A DNA stretch of 20,210 bases. Origin: a virus. Positions within the stretch are counted from its first letter, which is position 1. Every line of letters starts with the position of its first letter. Under the pieces are notes generated by a model. It was not told the origin of the DNA, did no database searches, and saw only the letters and a list, made by a program, of their open reading frames with translations. The position numbers were made by a program, and so were the translations under genes. The stretch is taken from positions 1 through 20,210 of IMG/VR virus record IMGVR_UViG_3300010885_007044; one strand, given 5' to 3'. Of the stretch, positions 1-20,210 are shown in pieces.

Positions 1-207
1 AGCGTGTCCTGTCCGCCCGTGAGCGTGCTCTGTCCGCCAGTCAGTGTGTCGTTACCGCCCGTGAGCGTGCTCTGTCCGCCAGTCAGTGTGTCGTTACCGC
101 CCGTGAGCGTGCTCTGTCCGCCAGTCAGTGTGTCGTTACCGCCCGTGAGTGTGTCATGTCCGCCAGTGAGCGTGTCCTGTCCGCCAGTGAGCGTATCTGT
201 TCCGGTG
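1..207. repeat. 21-bp tandem repeat array with 42-bp higher-order period
   Basis: Eight full 21-bp units lie at 19-186, with a partial unit at 1-18 and a degenerate one at 187-207. Two unit types alternate (gtgagcgtgctctgtccgcca and gtcagtgtgtcgttaccgccc). The 42-bp pair is repeated three times without a mismatch at 19-144, so the array amplified recently. On the minus strand each unit encodes one heptad such as NDTLTGG or QSTLTGG, so changes in copy number keep the frame. The array reaches the window edge and its true length is unknown. Confidence 0.95.
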
Positions 208-13595: not shown

Positions 13596-14008
13596 TTTGA
13601 GCTCCTGATGAGCGCCGTAGTAGACGTGAACTGAGGCATGGTGATGAGGAACGTGGTGGTCGAGGTCTTGTCCGCACCGAAGTCAATCACGGCTACAGAC
13701 TTGTTGCCCTTGCTGGTGTTGTAGATCAAGGCGCATCGCGCCGTCACCCCGGTTGTCCACGACACGTTGCTGAAGTTCACATAGGCTGTGTAGCCGTCTG
13801 TGCCCAACACAGCCCCGGTCAGGGTCGCTCCACCGGCTGTATATCCAGACGCTACAACCTCATTGGCACTGTTGTAGACCGTCGTGGCAGCGTTTAAATC
13901 TGCGTTGCCGGTGTACAGGGCGATCTTGAGAGTATCTGTGAGCAAGTTGTGTACCGCTTGATACAGCTCCGCCTTGAACGACGTGGTTTGGGTTTGAACG
14001 ATGCTCAT
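13592..14008 (-). CDS. beta-rich structural protein, paralogue of the 12939-13394 product (138 aa)
   Basis: It starts with an ATG that overlaps the upstream stop as ATGA. Ordered motifs are TSFKAELYQAVHNLLTDTLK, ALYTGNADLNAATTVYNSAN, VVASGYTAGGATL, CALIYNTSKGNKSVAVIDFG and FLITMPQFTSTTALI. The same series occurs in the 151-residue product downstream, so the two arose by duplication. A fold made mainly of beta strands with a conserved YN-[TS]-[ST]-x(2)-NK loop is likely. From position, between the connector-like gene and the adhesins, it is probably a tail component. No firm function. Confidence 0.83.
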   Translation of the reverse strand: MSIVQTQTTSFKAELYQAVHNLLTDTLKIALYTGNADLNAATTVYNSANEVVASGYTAGGATLTGAVLGTDGYTAYVNFSNVSWTTGVTARCALIYNTSKGNKSVAVIDFGADKTSTTTFLITMPQFTSTTALIRSSN

Positions 14009-14655
14009 GCTACGGTAGTCCTAACTTGGCCATCACGGTACGCATCCATACGTTGCTTGCCATCACCAAGGTTCTTAAGGAGCAGCACAGACTGGGTGTA
14101 CATCTTGTCGTACAACGCCACGAGGTCTGCGTCACCCTTCATGAACCGGATAGCCTCGACCAGTGCACCATTGAGCAGGGCAGAGTCAAAGTTGTCACCA
14201 AGCCACGAAGTACCTGCGGTCACGATAGACTGTGGGTAGTAGTAATAGTGCAGCTCTACGCTGTAGTTAGCGTCTGGTGTTGGGCCCACGATGTACGAAA
14301 GCTCCGTCACAGCACCGGACTGTGGGCCGAAGATAGCGTAGTGCTTGGGTAAACCGGAAGTTGACGATGAGGGGTAGGCCTCACGGATGAAGTTCACATC
14401 CTTGTTCAGCAGGAACGTGTAGTCCCCGTTGGCGTCAATGACTGCGATGGAGTACGTAGACAGGAAGTCATCAGGGCATGCAAGGTACTTGTTGCTCACC
14501 GACAACGCGCCAGTCACGTTCTTACGCAGGTTAGACAGCTGAACTGAGTTGTAAATCTTCTGTTCGGTCTGCTTTGTGAACATGGCGTACTCATCCGCCG
14601 TGAACTGGTTTTCACAGATGTCAGCGATATTAGTGCACAGTTCAGCGTAGTTCAT
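14005..14655 (-). CDS. putative head-tail connector / adaptor protein (216 aa)
   Basis: Helical N-terminus (MNYAELCTNIADICENQFTA, then FTKQTEQKIYNSVQL) followed by a beta domain (YLACPDDFLSTYSIAV, GLPKHYAIFGP) and a C-terminal helical bundle (DNFDSALLNGALVEAIRFMK). This helix-beta-helix order with a PxDFL segment is shared with phage adaptor proteins that dock under the portal, and I recall similar proteins in freshwater podoviruses. The gene encoding a gp4/gp11-type adaptor lies about 1.4 kb upstream, so the two may form successive rings of the neck, or this one may join the beta-rich tail proteins encoded next. RBS region is weak; the start follows the previous stop by three bases. Confidence 0.75.
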   Translation of the reverse strand: MNYAELCTNIADICENQFTADEYAMFTKQTEQKIYNSVQLSNLRKNVTGALSVSNKYLACPDDFLSTYSIAVIDANGDYTFLLNKDVNFIREAYPSSSTSGLPKHYAIFGPQSGAVTELSYIVGPTPDANYSVELHYYYYPQSIVTAGTSWLGDNFDSALLNGALVEAIRFMKGDADLVALYDKMYTQSVLLLKNLGDGKQRMDAYRDGQVRTTVA

Positions 14656-14658
14656 AGC

Positions 14659-14904
14659 TTAAGCCATTGGCCCCCGAGCCATAACACCCTTAGTAGCAGC
14701 GCCTGTACCACGAATCTTGATACCGTCGGTCTTCACTGACTCGTCACCAGCAGACTTGCTGATGCCACCGATGCTCACATCGTACGTGTCCAGCTTGCTG
14801 CGGTTCGGCTCTTTGCCGGGGTTCTCCACCACATTCACAGTTTTGCCGGACATGGTGTGGGGCTTGGCGTACGCCGAAGCAGGTTTGTTGTTAATCGTAG
14901 CCAT
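14659..14904 (-). CDS. small glycine/lysine-rich phage protein (81 aa)
   Basis: Begins ATG one base after the TAA of the preceding small gene. It is probably disordered. The C-terminus TDGIKIRGTGAATKGVMARG is the most recognisable part and resembles small proteins of related phages. The segment (T)DGI-x-x-RG is weakly reminiscent of the GIA-x-[KR]-GKT motif in three neighbours. No enzyme motif or membrane segment. Confidence 0.78.
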   Translation of the reverse strand: MATINNKPASAYAKPHTMSGKTVNVVENPGKEPNRSKLDTYDVSIGGISKSAGDESVKTDGIKIRGTGAATKGVMARGPMA

Positions 14905-14905
14905 A

Positions 14906-15091
14906 TTAGCCTCGCTTTTGATTCATGGCGCGGGCCATGTTGCGGCCAACGGAGCGCATAGCTTCACCGGTCACGCCAGCAGTCTTCTTACCACCGCTAT
15001 CGGTTTTGATCGCGGGGCCGCTATTACCAAGATTTTTGCCAGCGGTCTTGCCTTTTTGGGCTATGCCGTCTGCAGCTCGTCTGAATGTCAT
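14906..15091 (-). CDS. small basic protein with GIAQKGKT motif (61 aa)
   Basis: The start ATG is preceded by AGGAG with a six-base spacer, the TAG stop of the upstream gene being part of that site. The N-terminus MTFRRAADGIAQKGKTAGKN carries the motif that also ends the 164- and 194-residue proteins encoded at 17626-18120 and 17042-17626. The rest is basic and Gly/Ala-rich (MRSVGRNMARAMNQKRG) and likely disordered or nucleic-acid binding. Function unknown; the clear ribosome binding site and tight packing support translation. Confidence 0.78.
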   Translation of the reverse strand: MTFRRAADGIAQKGKTAGKNLGNSGPAIKTDSGGKKTAGVTGEAMRSVGRNMARAMNQKRG

Positions 15092-15100
15092 GGTTAACTC

Positions 15101-15490
15101 CTATGAAACGGAAACCGTTACTGTACCAACATAAGCTGTACCCACCAAATAGTTTGGAGTGAGCACCGCATCGAATTGAGACGAACCACCAACAGGTCTC
15201 CATCCCCACTGAAAATCTCTAGAGCCCCCCGATGGGAACCCCTGCACGTTCGTACCCGACTGCACATAGGTAGAGTCCCTGCGCGGTTCACGCACCGCCT
15301 GTGGGTCATCCACAGGGAACATACCTAGCTGTAGTTGCGGCTGGTCAGGGTCCCAGCAGGCAGAACAGACCAAGAGATTGTAAGTCTTAGTCTTCTTAAC
15401 TTCTTTCTTCAGCTGCCTGAGTTTGTACCGCTGTCCGCAACGGTCGCACTCCGCAATGCTATTTTTACCGGATGCGAACCGGTTACCCAT
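15101..15490 (-). CDS. zinc-ribbon virion-region protein (129 aa)
   Basis: Residues 15-45 hold a CDRC ... CSAC pair (C-x2-C, about 24 residues, C-x2-C), a four-cysteine zinc ribbon, with basic residues between (RYKLRQLKKEVKKTK). Next comes DPDQPQLQLGMFPVDDPQAV, then a Gly/Ser/aromatic region (GGSRDFQWGWRPVGG) and a beta C-terminus (YVGTVTVSVS). The combination is one I have seen repeatedly in uncultured phage structural modules. It starts ATG overlapping the HNH gene stop as TAATG. A role in neck or tail assembly is likely, with the ribbon either structural or nucleic-acid binding; not proven. Confidence 0.85.
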   Translation of the reverse strand: MGNRFASGKNSIAECDRCGQRYKLRQLKKEVKKTKTYNLLVCSACWDPDQPQLQLGMFPVDDPQAVREPRRDSTYVQSGTNVQGFPSGGSRDFQWGWRPVGGSSQFDAVLTPNYLVGTAYVGTVTVSVS

Positions 15491-16098
15491 TACGCAAGCT
15501 CCATACGGTTGCTTTTACGTAAGTTATCTACTGCGGGTATTACTTGCAGATTGTAGGGCGTGTGGAACCCTGAGGCTAGTTTTCCTCGTAGCGGTATGAC
15601 ATGATCTACGTGCCAAGGAAACCCAAACCGTGCTGTGCGCATAGCCGCTAGCTCGTAGGCCTGTTCAATCATCCAATGCTCATCCGCAGTTAACCATGAT
15701 GGTGTGCGCTGTAGTTTATCTGCGTGCTGTTTATTGCGTTTAGCCAGCATGCGGGGGTAGTTGGCCTCGTAGTACCGTTTGTACGCTAGCTTTACTTGCT
15801 CAAGATTAGCAGCTCGGTAGGCCTGTTTTCGTGCCGCATCATGCACTACATTGACCTCACGCCATTCTTGATGCCACTGCCGCACTTTGGCTTTGTTTTG
15901 CTCACGGTACTGCTTGTTTCGAGCATGCACAACCCCAAGGTCTTTTGCTTGGTTTTTCTTTACTGCGTCCAGTACGCATGAAATGCACCCGAAGGATGCC
16001 ACATACCGTAAACCTTGTAAGTTTGGGTGTTTGGCGCACACCTTCCCAACGTAGCGCGGTACGCCGTTGGCCTGTGCTTCTAAACGTGTTAGCGCCAT
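15490..16098 (-). CDS. HNH endonuclease, homing-type (202 aa)
   Basis: Three parts are visible. An N-terminal zinc-finger-like C21-x2-H24 ... C38-x2-C41 precedes a central lysine/arginine-rich region with Y-x2-N repeats (YREQNKAK, YRAANLEQ, YYEANYPR) that likely binds DNA. The C-terminal HNH nuclease contains HVDHVIPLRGKLASGFHTPY, then NLQVIPAVDNLRKSN. Metal/catalytic candidates are H163, D165, H166 and the later H179, N183 and N197. Stand-alone HNH genes of this type in phages are usually mobile and spread by cutting alleles lacking them. The gene sits between neck genes with a five-base gap upstream and a one-base overlap downstream, so it shares their operon. Confidence 0.9.
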   Translation of the reverse strand: MALTRLEAQANGVPRYVGKVCAKHPNLQGLRYVASFGCISCVLDAVKKNQAKDLGVVHARNKQYREQNKAKVRQWHQEWREVNVVHDAARKQAYRAANLEQVKLAYKRYYEANYPRMLAKRNKQHADKLQRTPSWLTADEHWMIEQAYELAAMRTARFGFPWHVDHVIPLRGKLASGFHTPYNLQVIPAVDNLRKSNRMELA

Positions 16099-16103
16099 AG
16101 GGT

Positions 16104-16808
16104 TTACGAGATGAACATTTGGCGTGGGACGAATCGAATAGCCGCCTTCTCACGGTCTTCCCCAGCTGCTAACTCAAAGGACTCGTCGTACACCTGCTTG
16201 AGCATTGGGATTCGGTCCATGGCCTCAGGAATCTTCAAAGCAATGTGGTACGCCAAACCTGCGGTCAGGGCAGGTAGAAAGCGGAAGTTCACGTCGGCGG
16301 TGTTCACACCGGTACCCGCATCGTCGATACGGCGCAAGCGCCAGTACTTAAAAACATAAGTAGGGCTAGCTACGGTGCCTTGGTCGGGAATAGGCCACAC
16401 GGTGATCCTAGGGTTATCCCTTAGACGCTCAATCCAGACTTGGATAGGCCGGGCTTGCTGCAGCTTGTTGGGGATCGTGGCGTACGTGGACACGCTGATG
16501 CGCGTGATAGTCAGGTCAGACTGTGTAGATACGCTACCTTGGCCCGTACGAATCACGTGCTCCAGCAGGTCAATGGTGTCTGCTGGTAGGTCGTAGGTGG
16601 CTTGGCCTTGGATGAGGTTGATGTACCCCTCATCAATCGTCCACATGTTGATGCCCTTGTTCTGCCACTCAATGGTCATCAGGTTCATCGACCGACGCGC
16701 TGTGCGCAGGTCATAGCCAGACCGCATCTCACGGCCCGCGCGCTCCCATGCCTCCTCAGCGATTTCCGTGAAGTCGAGATTGAAAGCGGTGGTGCCGGAT
16801 ACAGCCAT
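16104..16808 (-). CDS. head-tail adaptor, P22 gp4 / T7 gp11-like (234 aa)
   Basis: The start MAVSGTTAFNLDFTEIAEEA leads into a helix pair (WERAGREMRSGYDLRTARRS) and MNLMTIEWQNKGINMWTIDE, the hallmark of podoviral portal-docking adaptors. The sheet region follows (INLIQGQATYDLPADTIDLL), then VWIERLRDNPRITVWPIPDQ and FKYWRLRRIDDAG. A C-terminal helical tail holds LPALTAGLAYHIALKIP. Such a protein would form the dodecameric ring below the portal that joins the head to the nozzle protein encoded at 3201-5300. Start ATG follows the previous stop by three bases. Length and context fit the family; whether it is closer to gp4 or gp11 cannot be decided here. Confidence 0.85.
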   Translation of the reverse strand: MAVSGTTAFNLDFTEIAEEAWERAGREMRSGYDLRTARRSMNLMTIEWQNKGINMWTIDEGYINLIQGQATYDLPADTIDLLEHVIRTGQGSVSTQSDLTITRISVSTYATIPNKLQQARPIQVWIERLRDNPRITVWPIPDQGTVASPTYVFKYWRLRRIDDAGTGVNTADVNFRFLPALTAGLAYHIALKIPEAMDRIPMLKQVYDESFELAAGEDREKAAIRFVPRQMFIS

Positions 16809-16811
16809 GGT

Positions 16812-17045
16812 TTACTTCTTTGCGGTTTTTGCAGAGTCAAGGAAGGCTTGGTCGGTAGGGGCACCATTGGCACCCGCTTTGCGCATTTTAGCGCCTCGCT
16901 TGCGCTTTGCGTTAATGTTTGCGTACAAGCCTACCTGCCCGCCCTCAGCGTACTGCGTGAAGTCGGTGTCGTCGCGGCGTGCCTTCTTGACACCGCTAGG
17001 CATCTTGGAGGGGGAGATGGCCCCCATACCGCGACTGGCTCTCAC
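16812..17045 (-). CDS. small basic conserved phage protein (77 aa)
   Basis: The start is GTG overlapping the previous stop as GTGA; AAGGG lies six bases upstream. The sequence opens RGMGAISPSKMPSGVKK and continues with YAEGGQVGLYANINAKRKRG and AGANGAPTDQAFLDSAKTAKK, a pattern I recall as a conserved small protein near capsid genes of many uncultured phages. It is rich in Lys/Arg/Gly and lacks membrane segments. It shares the [MLY]A[KE]GG tetrad with its neighbours. Function unknown; possibly head-internal or assembly related, which is inference. Confidence 0.82.
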   Translation of the reverse strand: MRASRGMGAISPSKMPSGVKKARRDDTDFTQYAEGGQVGLYANINAKRKRGAKMRKAGANGAPTDQAFLDSAKTAKK

Positions 17046-17626
17046 TTGCGACCCTTAGCCATACCGCCACTGCACATCATGGTGCCACGGGTCTTGCCGC
17101 GTTGGGCAATGCCATCACCGCGAGACGAAGCGGAGCTGATGGAGCCGCCCTTAGCGTAGCCTTTGGCGGGCAGCAGTGTCTTGGGGTTCACGCGGCTTGC
17201 GTCAAACTTGCTAGCAGGCATGTTGCGCTGGCGCAAGCGCGCGGTTTCGGCTGCAGTAGACTCTTTAGCTGCCGACATCTCGTTGTTCTTACGGTTCATG
17301 CGATCGTACGGAGTCTCGTAAGGCTCCGACTTCTTCATGGGGGGTGTAGGTGCACGACCGGGGCCGGTGGCCATAGGTGCAGCAGCTTTGGTTGGGGCAC
17401 TAGCCAGATCAGTGGTGTACTTTTTGCCGTTGTACTCAAAGGTCTTGCCACCACCTTTACGAGCAGCAGCAAAAGCATCTTTGAATGAGCTGGGCTTAGC
17501 CATAGGCTGCTCTTCAGCCATAGGCGGCAATTCTGAAGACTCGATCTCTGGTGCAGGGTTAGCGCCGCCAACTTCAACTTCGCTGCCGTCTTCGCCGTCG
17601 TAGCGTTTTACTTTGTGTTTAGCCAT
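17042..17626 (-). CDS. disordered basic protein with GIAQRGKT C-terminus (194 aa)
   Basis: I chose the ATG at 17626, which overlaps the preceding TGA (TGATG), over the in-frame GTG two codons upstream, because it gives the usual MAKHK opening. The protein is Pro/Ala/Lys rich and largely disordered, with one compact-looking segment GGKTFEYNGKKYTTDLA (a short beta hairpin). Near the C-terminus it has YAKGGSISSASSRGDGIAQR, then GKTRGTMMCSGGMAKGRK. The GIAQRGKT motif is shared with the 61- and 164-residue proteins. Function unknown; probably not enzymatic. Confidence 0.8.
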   Translation of the reverse strand: MAKHKVKRYDGEDGSEVEVGGANPAPEIESSELPPMAEEQPMAKPSSFKDAFAAARKGGGKTFEYNGKKYTTDLASAPTKAAAPMATGPGRAPTPPMKKSEPYETPYDRMNRKNNEMSAAKESTAAETARLRQRNMPASKFDASRVNPKTLLPAKGYAKGGSISSASSRGDGIAQRGKTRGTMMCSGGMAKGRK

Positions 17627-18120
17627 CAGCACTTCCCACCTTTCTTCATGACGATCTGGGTACCTTTGGTCTTGCCTTTGGAGGCGATGCCATTGGCTGC
17701 CGAGCGGAACGCACCGCCTTTGGCTAGCTTCAGGGAAGTACCGCTGCTGCCTTTGTGTTCTTGGGCATCGTGCTGCTTGAAAGCCTTTTTAATCATGGCC
17801 TTGTCCTGAGCCATGTCAGTCGAGCCGCCTTCGGCCATCTTCTTCGATTTCAACTGGCTGAAGTCGAAGGCTTCCTCTTTTTTGGAGCCCTCTTTGCCCT
17901 TGCCTTTGACCTCAACGTCCTTGCCCGACTTCTCGAACTTGGTAAATGGGTTTACGCCTTTAGTAGCCATAGTGTCACCACCTTTTGAAAATTTCTTGCC
18001 GATATCGGCCTTGTTGAAGTCTTGTCCCACGGACTGTGGGACCCCTACTTTCTTGGCAAAAGCAGGGCTATGGGCCACAGCAGCCATGAAATTGCGTTGC
18101 TTTTTGGAGCTACTTGGCAT
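17626..18120 (-). CDS. small basic phage protein with GIASKGKT C-terminus (164 aa)
   Basis: The N-terminus SSKKQRNFMAAVAHSPAFAK and KVGVPQSVGQDFNKAD is a conserved opening that I recognise from phage proteins near capsid genes. The middle is charged (EVKGKGKEGSKKEEAFDFSQ) and the helix MAQDKAMIKKAFKQHDAQEH follows. The end is FRSAANGIASKGKTKGTQIV plus a Lys/Gly-rich tail finishing in Cys. It overlaps the preceding gene by 11 bases. Its mixture of conserved helix and disordered basic tail suggests a nucleic-acid- or capsid-interacting role; no function is established. Confidence 0.8.
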   Translation of the reverse strand: MPSSSKKQRNFMAAVAHSPAFAKKVGVPQSVGQDFNKADIGKKFSKGGDTMATKGVNPFTKFEKSGKDVEVKGKGKEGSKKEEAFDFSQLKSKKMAEGGSTDMAQDKAMIKKAFKQHDAQEHKGSSGTSLKLAKGGAFRSAANGIASKGKTKGTQIVMKKGGKC

Positions 18121-18356: not shown

Positions 18357-18602
18357 TCAGCAGTTCCAAGCCTTAAGGCTCTTGTTGATGCGCGAGTTCG
18401 GGTCTTTGGCGGTTTTTTCGGAGGTGAGCTTCTTTTTCATTCCACTCATCCTTGCGCAGAAAGAGTCGCGCCTGCTGCCGCCTTCCGGCTGGGGCGGTTT
18501 CAAATTCATGCCTTGCTTTTTGGCCGAAGCTCGCCCCTTGGCGTTCAAGCCCCCCTCGGGGTTCTTGCCTTCCTTGCGCGTCCATGCTGCTGACTTAGCC
18601 AT
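18357..18602 (-). CDS. DUF6321-like small basic protein (81 aa)
   Basis: The segment GGLNAKGRAS, then LKPPQPEGGSRRDSFCARMS, and the ending SLKAWNC match the arrangement I recall for the DUF6321 family (GGL-x-x-KGR ... RRSFCARMSG ... WNC), a small protein common in phage structural modules. It contains only two cysteines, C49 and the C-terminal C81. It is very basic. The ATG overlaps the previous stop by eight bases. The family has no known function. Naming rests on memory of the motif rather than a search. Confidence 0.78.
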   Translation of the reverse strand: MAKSAAWTRKEGKNPEGGLNAKGRASAKKQGMNLKPPQPEGGSRRDSFCARMSGMKKKLTSEKTAKDPNSRINKSLKAWNC

Positions 18603-19982: not shown

Positions 19983-20210
19983 TTAAGAGCTACCGGGGCT
20001 ACCAAAGATGCCCAGAGGGTCCGAAACACCGAACGAATAACGCTCGCGTGCTTTGTATCTCACGTTACCGGTATCGAAATCACCGTCCATGGAATTGGCC
20101 AGCGGAGTACGGACAAAGTGCTTCAAACCGTTAGGCACGTCAGTCAACAGGAACCAACCGTTTGTGTCGGTCAAGAAGTGATTGACGGTGTAGCCTTCAG
20201 GGATGGAACC
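19983..20210 (-). CDS. major capsid protein, C-terminal part (start beyond window)
   Basis: The minus-strand frame is open from the right edge through 75 residues to the TAA at 19985-19983. The end reads TVNHFLTDTNGWFLLTDVPN, GLKHFVRTPLANSMDGDFDT and GNVRYKARERYSFGVSDPLG, closing with a Gly/Ser tail. The segment F-x-VRTPL ... GNVRYKARERYSFG-x-SDP is the conserved C-terminus I know from HK97-fold coat proteins of podovirus-like phages. The terminator directly after it fits a highly expressed gene. Assignment to a specific coat family (for example P22-type or N4 gp56-type) cannot be made from this fragment. Confidence 0.8.
   Translation of the reverse strand, partial: GSIPEGYTVNHFLTDTNGWFLLTDVPNGLKHFVRTPLANSMDGDFDTGNVRYKARERYSFGVSDPLGIFGSPGSS

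Follow-up and report, generated by a model that had tools for sequence, protein, structure and literature searches.

A short peptide, GIA-x-[KR]-GKT, is shared by several otherwise dissimilar, small and basic proteins whose genes lie in the head operon of a single lineage of tailed phages from lakes and the sea. Its recurrence is confirmed and is far above chance. We give about even chances to the reading that it serves as a terminal docking tag, by which disordered small proteins would be brought to the head during its assembly.

The window, taken from IMG/VR, is a virus record of 20,210 bases, of which positions 14,906 to 18,120 were under study. Its genes lie mostly on the minus strand and represent the structural part of a tailed phage. 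Along this strand, the end of the capsid gene is followed by small structural genes, the genes for the DUF6321, 164-aa, 194-aa and 77-aa proteins, and the first head-tail adaptor gene. Then come an HNH-like ORF, a zinc-finger-like protein, the 61-aa and 81-aa proteins, the second adaptor, and tail and lysis genes (Table 1). A purine-rich stretch resembling a ribosome-binding site precedes the 164-aa, 194-aa and 61-aa genes. The sequence-only reading had reported the peptide at the C-terminal ends of the 164-aa and 194-aa proteins and at the start of the 61-aa protein, and all three copies are indeed present at these sites, on the minus strand. It had overlooked a fourth, divergent copy at the end of the 81-aa protein.

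Table 1. Positions of tagged proteins, tags and neighboring genes in the window.
Feature	Position	Strand	Remark
Major capsid protein gene, C-terminal end	19983..20174	-	Cut by the contig end
DUF6321 protein (PF19846)	18357..18602	-	Untagged in the window; tagged in some relatives
164-aa protein	17626..18120	-	N-terminal three-helix module (phrog_16759), disordered-looking middle, C-terminal tag
C-terminal tag of 164-aa protein, FRSAANGIASKGKTKGTQIVMKKGGKC	17629..17709	-	Class with about 22 residues from the motif's first Gly to the C-terminus
Tag core NGIASKGKT	17668..17694	-	Residues 143-151 of the 164-aa protein
194-aa protein	17042..17626	-	196 aa if GTG at 17632 is the start; C-terminal tag
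C-terminal tag of 194-aa protein with YAKGG lead-in, YAKGGSISSASSRGDGIAQRGKTRGTMMCSGGMAKGRK	17045..17158	-	
Tag core DGIAQRGKT	17090..17116	-	Residues 171-179 of the 194-aa protein
77-aa protein (GLYANINAKRKR..KMRKAG, phrog_16028)	16812..17045	-	Untagged; downstream boundary of the tagged slot
Head-tail adaptor 1 (SU10_adaptor, PF24175)	16104..16808	-	
202-aa ORF with HNH-like end (HVDHVIPLRG..NLQVIPAVDNLRKSN)	15490..16098	-	Between adaptor 1 and the zinc-finger-like gene
61-aa core protein, N-terminal tag MTFRRAADGIAQKGKTAGKNLGNSGP	14906..15091	-	
N-terminal tag core DGIAQKGKT	15044..15070	-	Residues 8-16 of the 61-aa protein
81-aa core protein	14659..14904	-	C-terminus TDGIKIRGTGAATKGVMARGPMA, a divergent tag form
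Head-tail adaptor 2 (SU10_adaptor, PF24175)	14005..14655	-	

Shuffling each protein 200,000 times regenerated the motif in 5 shuffles of the 164-aa, 1 of the 194-aa, and 3 of the 61-aa protein. Loci picked solely by similarity to the 164-aa protein (the best 80 listed) contain 151 copies in other ORFs compared with 0.0 in shuffled ORFs, and 73 of these 80 encode at least one further tagged protein. We also compared all ORF ends of capsid-chosen loci without reference to the motif, and found eight in-register shared ends, every one of which is the tag; shuffled ends gave none. The regular expressions defining tag presence were tuned after viewing matches and differ slightly between analyses, the capsid-chosen counts referring to the broader version.

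The tag is restricted to one phage lineage. A degenerate DNA pattern for the peptide matches at least 120 stretches in 2.9 million viral contigs, and a single one across 257 Gb of prokaryote genomes. The latter lies on a contig of a metagenome-assembled genome (CAIMTR010000124.1), which is binned to a gammaproteobacterium, has four tags, and probably derives from a phage. Plasmids have no match to the tag pattern. A looser pattern occurs in all 38 long virus records reached via tag loci, on one strand and usually clustered within a few kilobases, and its reversed control has zero matches in 38-39 long records. A search of isolated phages with the tag alone returned one weak match, MW202803, which we did not credit. 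All 120 listed tag-selected loci belong to one lineage and share one head-gene module, 119 directly and the last after extension of the record. This module is HTVC023P-related and runs in the order terminase, portal, GroES-like, scaffold-like, capsid, DUF6321, adaptor 1, zinc-finger-like, and adaptor 2; the window holds it only from the capsid end onward.

Among the capsid-chosen loci with at least 5 kb downstream, 32 of 34 have the tag and 23 have two or more copies. The two exceptions have decayed-looking tag ends, GIESKGKTKCKMR and GAGCETRTKKTRYV. The expectation that the motif always occurs at least twice per genome near the capsid gene is thus borne out for its recurrence beside that gene but not for the copy number, although a phage usually has more than one tag. 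Copy numbers per genome are lower bounds because most loci are fragments, and the genome counts are not independent events because members of the lineage are related. Most tagged genes sit in a stretch flanked by the 164-aa gene and a head-tail adaptor gene. In the slot bounded by the 164-aa and 77-aa genes, 163 of 186 ORFs are tagged, and the remaining 23 are mostly ORFs in a wrong frame, near-tags or copies of a small conserved module.

At least some 200 virus loci yielded 483 distinct tagged proteins, almost all with the motif at an end and in fixed registers. Exactly 13 residues run from the Gly to the C-terminus in 236 distinct proteins, and 21-22 residues in another 111, which usually end in a GG-K-C-like tail; in 37 proteins the Gly is residue 9 from the N-terminus. 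The consensus of the 13-residue class is GG-x-V-x-S-A-S-x-R-[AG]-D-G-[IC]-A-x-[KR]-G-K-T-[RK]-G-[KR]-[MFIY]-[CVIL]-stop, with a mostly hydrophobic or Cys final residue. The Asp before the Gly is conserved at 99%, the Lys at 97%, and the Thr at 100%, the last figure being partly built in as the search expression requires both Gly residues and the Thr. An N-terminal start resembling K-x-K[RK][YF]-x-[ED]-G is common to 37 tagged proteins. In 96 tagged proteins from different body clusters, mean column identity is 8%, and the sole invariant columns are an upstream GG and the core G, G, and T. The [MLY]A[KE]GG tetrad noted earlier in the neighboring proteins is for the most part no separate motif: it mostly overlaps the upstream part of the tag, whose GG is among the invariant columns, and so is mainly a lead-in to it. 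In the AlphaFold models of both the 164-aa and the 61-aa proteins, the tag is unstructured.

What is conserved is the peptide and not its DNA. The 413 tag copies comprise 408 distinct 36-nt strings encoding 141 peptides, and third-position identity is 0.50 within genomes and 0.46 between them. Synonymous codons thus vary freely, and therefore selection acts on the peptide. Tags of the same genome agree slightly more than random ones (0.811 vs 0.778; 3 of 1000 permutations), which is a small effect.

The bodies behind the tag are diverse. They fall into about 125 clusters, but the true number of independent families may be higher or lower, because in one large cluster, which holds the 164-aa family, other members were joined through short common modules and low-complexity stretches. 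Close members of the 164-aa family make up about a fifth of the distinct tagged proteins. Of the bodies, 88% are positively charged, and hydrophobic residues account for 15%, against 28% in the structural proteins used as reference. The median net charge of C-terminally tagged proteins is +15, and that of their last 29 residues is +6. The bodies look disordered. In the 164-aa protein AlphaFold predicts a confident three-helix module at the N-terminus (residues 6-39), with low confidence elsewhere, tag included, and in the 61-aa protein confidence is low except for one helix. DUF6321 is the only known domain among the bodies. Other matches in Pfam, PHROG, and PADLOC are single and weak, none is to an effector or enzyme family, and searches against solved structures returned nothing useful. 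A slot body has a homologue in just 5% of the other genomes, and 30 of the 163 have none at all. Given their disordered look and the lack of effector matches, the bodies may owe their variability to plain drift of disordered sequence and not to an arms race. The 194-aa protein contains, at residues ~30-70, a module of the form SFKDAFAAARKxGxKTFxYNGKKYTT, which has weak matches in a crAss-like phage (cr107_1), Rhizobium phages, and a rat-associated microvirus.

A fixed end peptide, changing disordered-looking bodies, and an operon beside the capsid and adaptor genes together make the peptide docking-tag-like. As a short linear motif exposed at the free end of small disordered proteins, it would bind one conserved component of head assembly, such as the coat, scaffold, portal or an adaptor. 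Binding would gather several unrelated, basic, and fast-changing proteins at one site in the forming virion, most likely in the head interior. The sequence-only reading had suggested a docking or packaging tag; its descriptive part stands, namely a transferable terminal peptide on dissimilar, basic, and probably disordered proteins of one operon by the capsid gene, to which recruitment to the virion, the partner, and any role as cargo are what we infer in addition. A cargo role is unsupported beyond gene location, the bodies matching no effector or enzyme family. The virion location is likewise inferred, from the place of the genes in the head module and from the N-terminal ~40 residues of the 164-aa protein (the phrog_16759 module), which also start protein CBB_322 of the jumbo phage CBB. 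In CsCl-purified CBB virions, CBB_322 was detected by mass spectrometry with 30 peptides and 43.6% coverage (PMC5259590). It differs from the 164-aa protein in being 847 residues long and in having a C-terminus without the tag. We found no virion mass spectrometry of any tagged protein. The 164-aa N-module (AFAKKVGVPQ) also resembles the end of the scaffold-like protein (DIAKRLGVPL). This similarity beats 60 column shuffles, with an hhalign probability of 33%, or 3% at full length, and offers a weak lead only. The N-terminal copy of the tag could be convergent.

A basic nucleic-acid-binding tail is the strongest competitor of the docking tag, albeit an unlikely one. The tagged proteins would then be protamine-like, condensing or coating DNA, and the peptide would contact packaged DNA or RNA. 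Their high net charge, including that of the last 29 residues, and their disordered-looking bodies are as expected for such proteins, and the RGKTRG stretch is similar to basic nucleic-acid-binding peptides. A nonspecific tail, however, needs neither the nearly invariant Asp and Thr (the latter partly built in) nor an exact distance to the C-terminus.

Somewhat less probable again is simple inheritance, by which the slot proteins would be one expanded family spread by duplication and recombination, with bodies that have since diverged. All copies do belong to one lineage and lie mostly in tandem in one operon, and about a fifth of the distinct tagged proteins are close 164-aa family members. 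Inheritance accounts for the origin of the tag, but not for why the end alone has been retained. Moreover, the tag is found on separate families (DUF6321, 164-aa, and 61-aa) and at opposite ends, and DUF6321 proteins exist with and without it.

We regard as improbable that the tag is a processing, stability or regulatory signal, i.e. a degron or a site of proteolysis or modification, instead of a docking element. Its position at the very end and the hydrophobic or Cys final residue in most of the 13-residue class would suit such a signal, against which stand the N-terminal occurrence, the extra tail of the 22-residue class, and the lack of an S78 protease in 20 long contigs. It is very improbable that the conserved element is DNA, namely a recombination or regulatory site translated incidentally: the slot varies strongly, as a recombination hot spot would, but third positions are free, with 408 strings for 141 peptides, and tag codons are largely at synonymous saturation. 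A DNA-level repeat was ruled out by the same synonymous variation. Chance has practically no standing, for although the tagged proteins are Lys/Gly-rich, the proposed refutation from composition fails on 151 copies against 0.0 in shuffled ORFs at loci not chosen by the motif, the reversed pattern gave zero matches in 39 records, and 257 Gb of prokaryote genomes gave a single match.

In its design the tag resembles the capsid targeting sequence (CTS) of phage T4, which is N-terminal and is removed by the prohead protease. Both are one common terminal peptide on several dissimilar small phage proteins. The tag differs in being mostly C-terminal (N-terminal only in the 61-aa family), in its unrelated sequence, and in the disordered-looking bodies that carry it, and by this comparison it would not be a member of the CTS family. 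The T4 internal proteins have been reviewed as diverse defence proteins in which only the CTS is conserved (PMC3012670), and they are packaged and injected with the genome (PMC9391042). In 20 long contigs, an S78 prohead protease is absent, the control search having matched elsewhere; a search for S77 (T4 gp21-like) proteases had zero matches in the same number of long contigs, and its control also matched nowhere. Encapsulin cargo-loading peptides offer a second comparison, being short, C-terminal, found on unrelated proteins, and docked inside an HK97-fold shell. Their sequence differs from that of the tag, and they serve cellular nanocompartments rather than phage heads, docking of the tag being our proposal. 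GIAxRGKT is a formal match to Walker A (GxxxxGK[ST]). We rejected a P-loop NTPase, as some copies have F, H, R or Y in place of the Lys, the motif lies in an unstructured end, and Pfam returned no NTPase match.

The relatives of the tagged lineage indicate how far the peptide extends. The capsid protein of one lineage member (L124), typed as phrog_371 and PF25209 (Phage_capsid_4), shares 73% identity with its counterpart in Planktothrix phage Pag-Yong1 and 65% with the capsid proteins of pelagiphages HTVC023P and HTVC027P. HTVC023P-type pelagiphages, DSL-LC04, and Pag-Yong1 are like the tagged lineage in capsid, portal, terminase, GroES-like, and adaptor genes, in similar order. Pag-Yong1 has one clear C-terminal tag, RDGCAKRGRTKGRFI, on a protein of about 308 aa (UMO75986.1) encoded in the same slot between the 164-aa and adaptor genes, while HTVC023P and DSL-LC04 have only degenerate look-alikes (an end, GGAAVRGMGFKGVF, and a start, MAGRGMGCATRGGG). 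The passages covered from the papers on the HTVC023P-type phages and DSL-LC04 describe no such terminal peptide, and we found no described shared terminal phage peptide in the open-access literature; the tag appears to be undescribed. Three phage records with different named cyanobacterial hosts (OQ594354, OL906435, and PP438419) are all 65,014 bp long and share the same capsid match. Compared by length and capsid match alone, the three may represent a single phage, whose host could be a companion bacterium.

More distant relatives have a terminal RGMG[AC]AT[KR]GG, with 119 matches, of which 68 are C-terminal, 49 N-terminal, and 2 internal. In one locus (L397), three unrelated neighboring proteins in the same slot share a terminal RRGMGAATRGG. 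Loci chosen by this second peptide have in-register copies on several proteins in 1 of 120 cases. We propose that the second peptide and the tag are homologous, judging by the alignment R-[AG]-x-G-x-A-x-[KR]-G and by position. A joint switch of peptide in the N-terminal core gene and the C-terminal tags of sister phages was looked for and not seen, as no locus has both N- and C-terminal forms of the second peptide, and we make no claim of it. Because related phages have the variant RGMGAATRGG, the tag and its reader may have changed together. A lineage-wide address system, in which one head component reads the peptide and loads a changing set of disordered proteins into each virion, is a tentative extension of the docking tag that we hold to be possible but less probable than docking itself. 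If virion loading is true, the targeting signal would be readable from sequence and virion-delivered proteins could be listed in many uncultured aquatic phages. The tag would then be an independent counterpart of the T4 capsid targeting sequence and could be used to load proteins into phage heads. Its function aside, it ties together about 125 clusters of proteins that otherwise lack annotation.

Two further features of the window concern other elements. The 202-aa HNH-like ORF has no significant match in a Pfam search and is probably a free-standing homing endonuclease insertion; in L124, adaptor 1 and the zinc-finger-like gene are adjacent, without this ORF between them. Tandem repeats are present at window positions 1-194, at the contig end (4.3 copies of a 42-base unit), and at 811-978 (1.9 copies of a 90-base unit).
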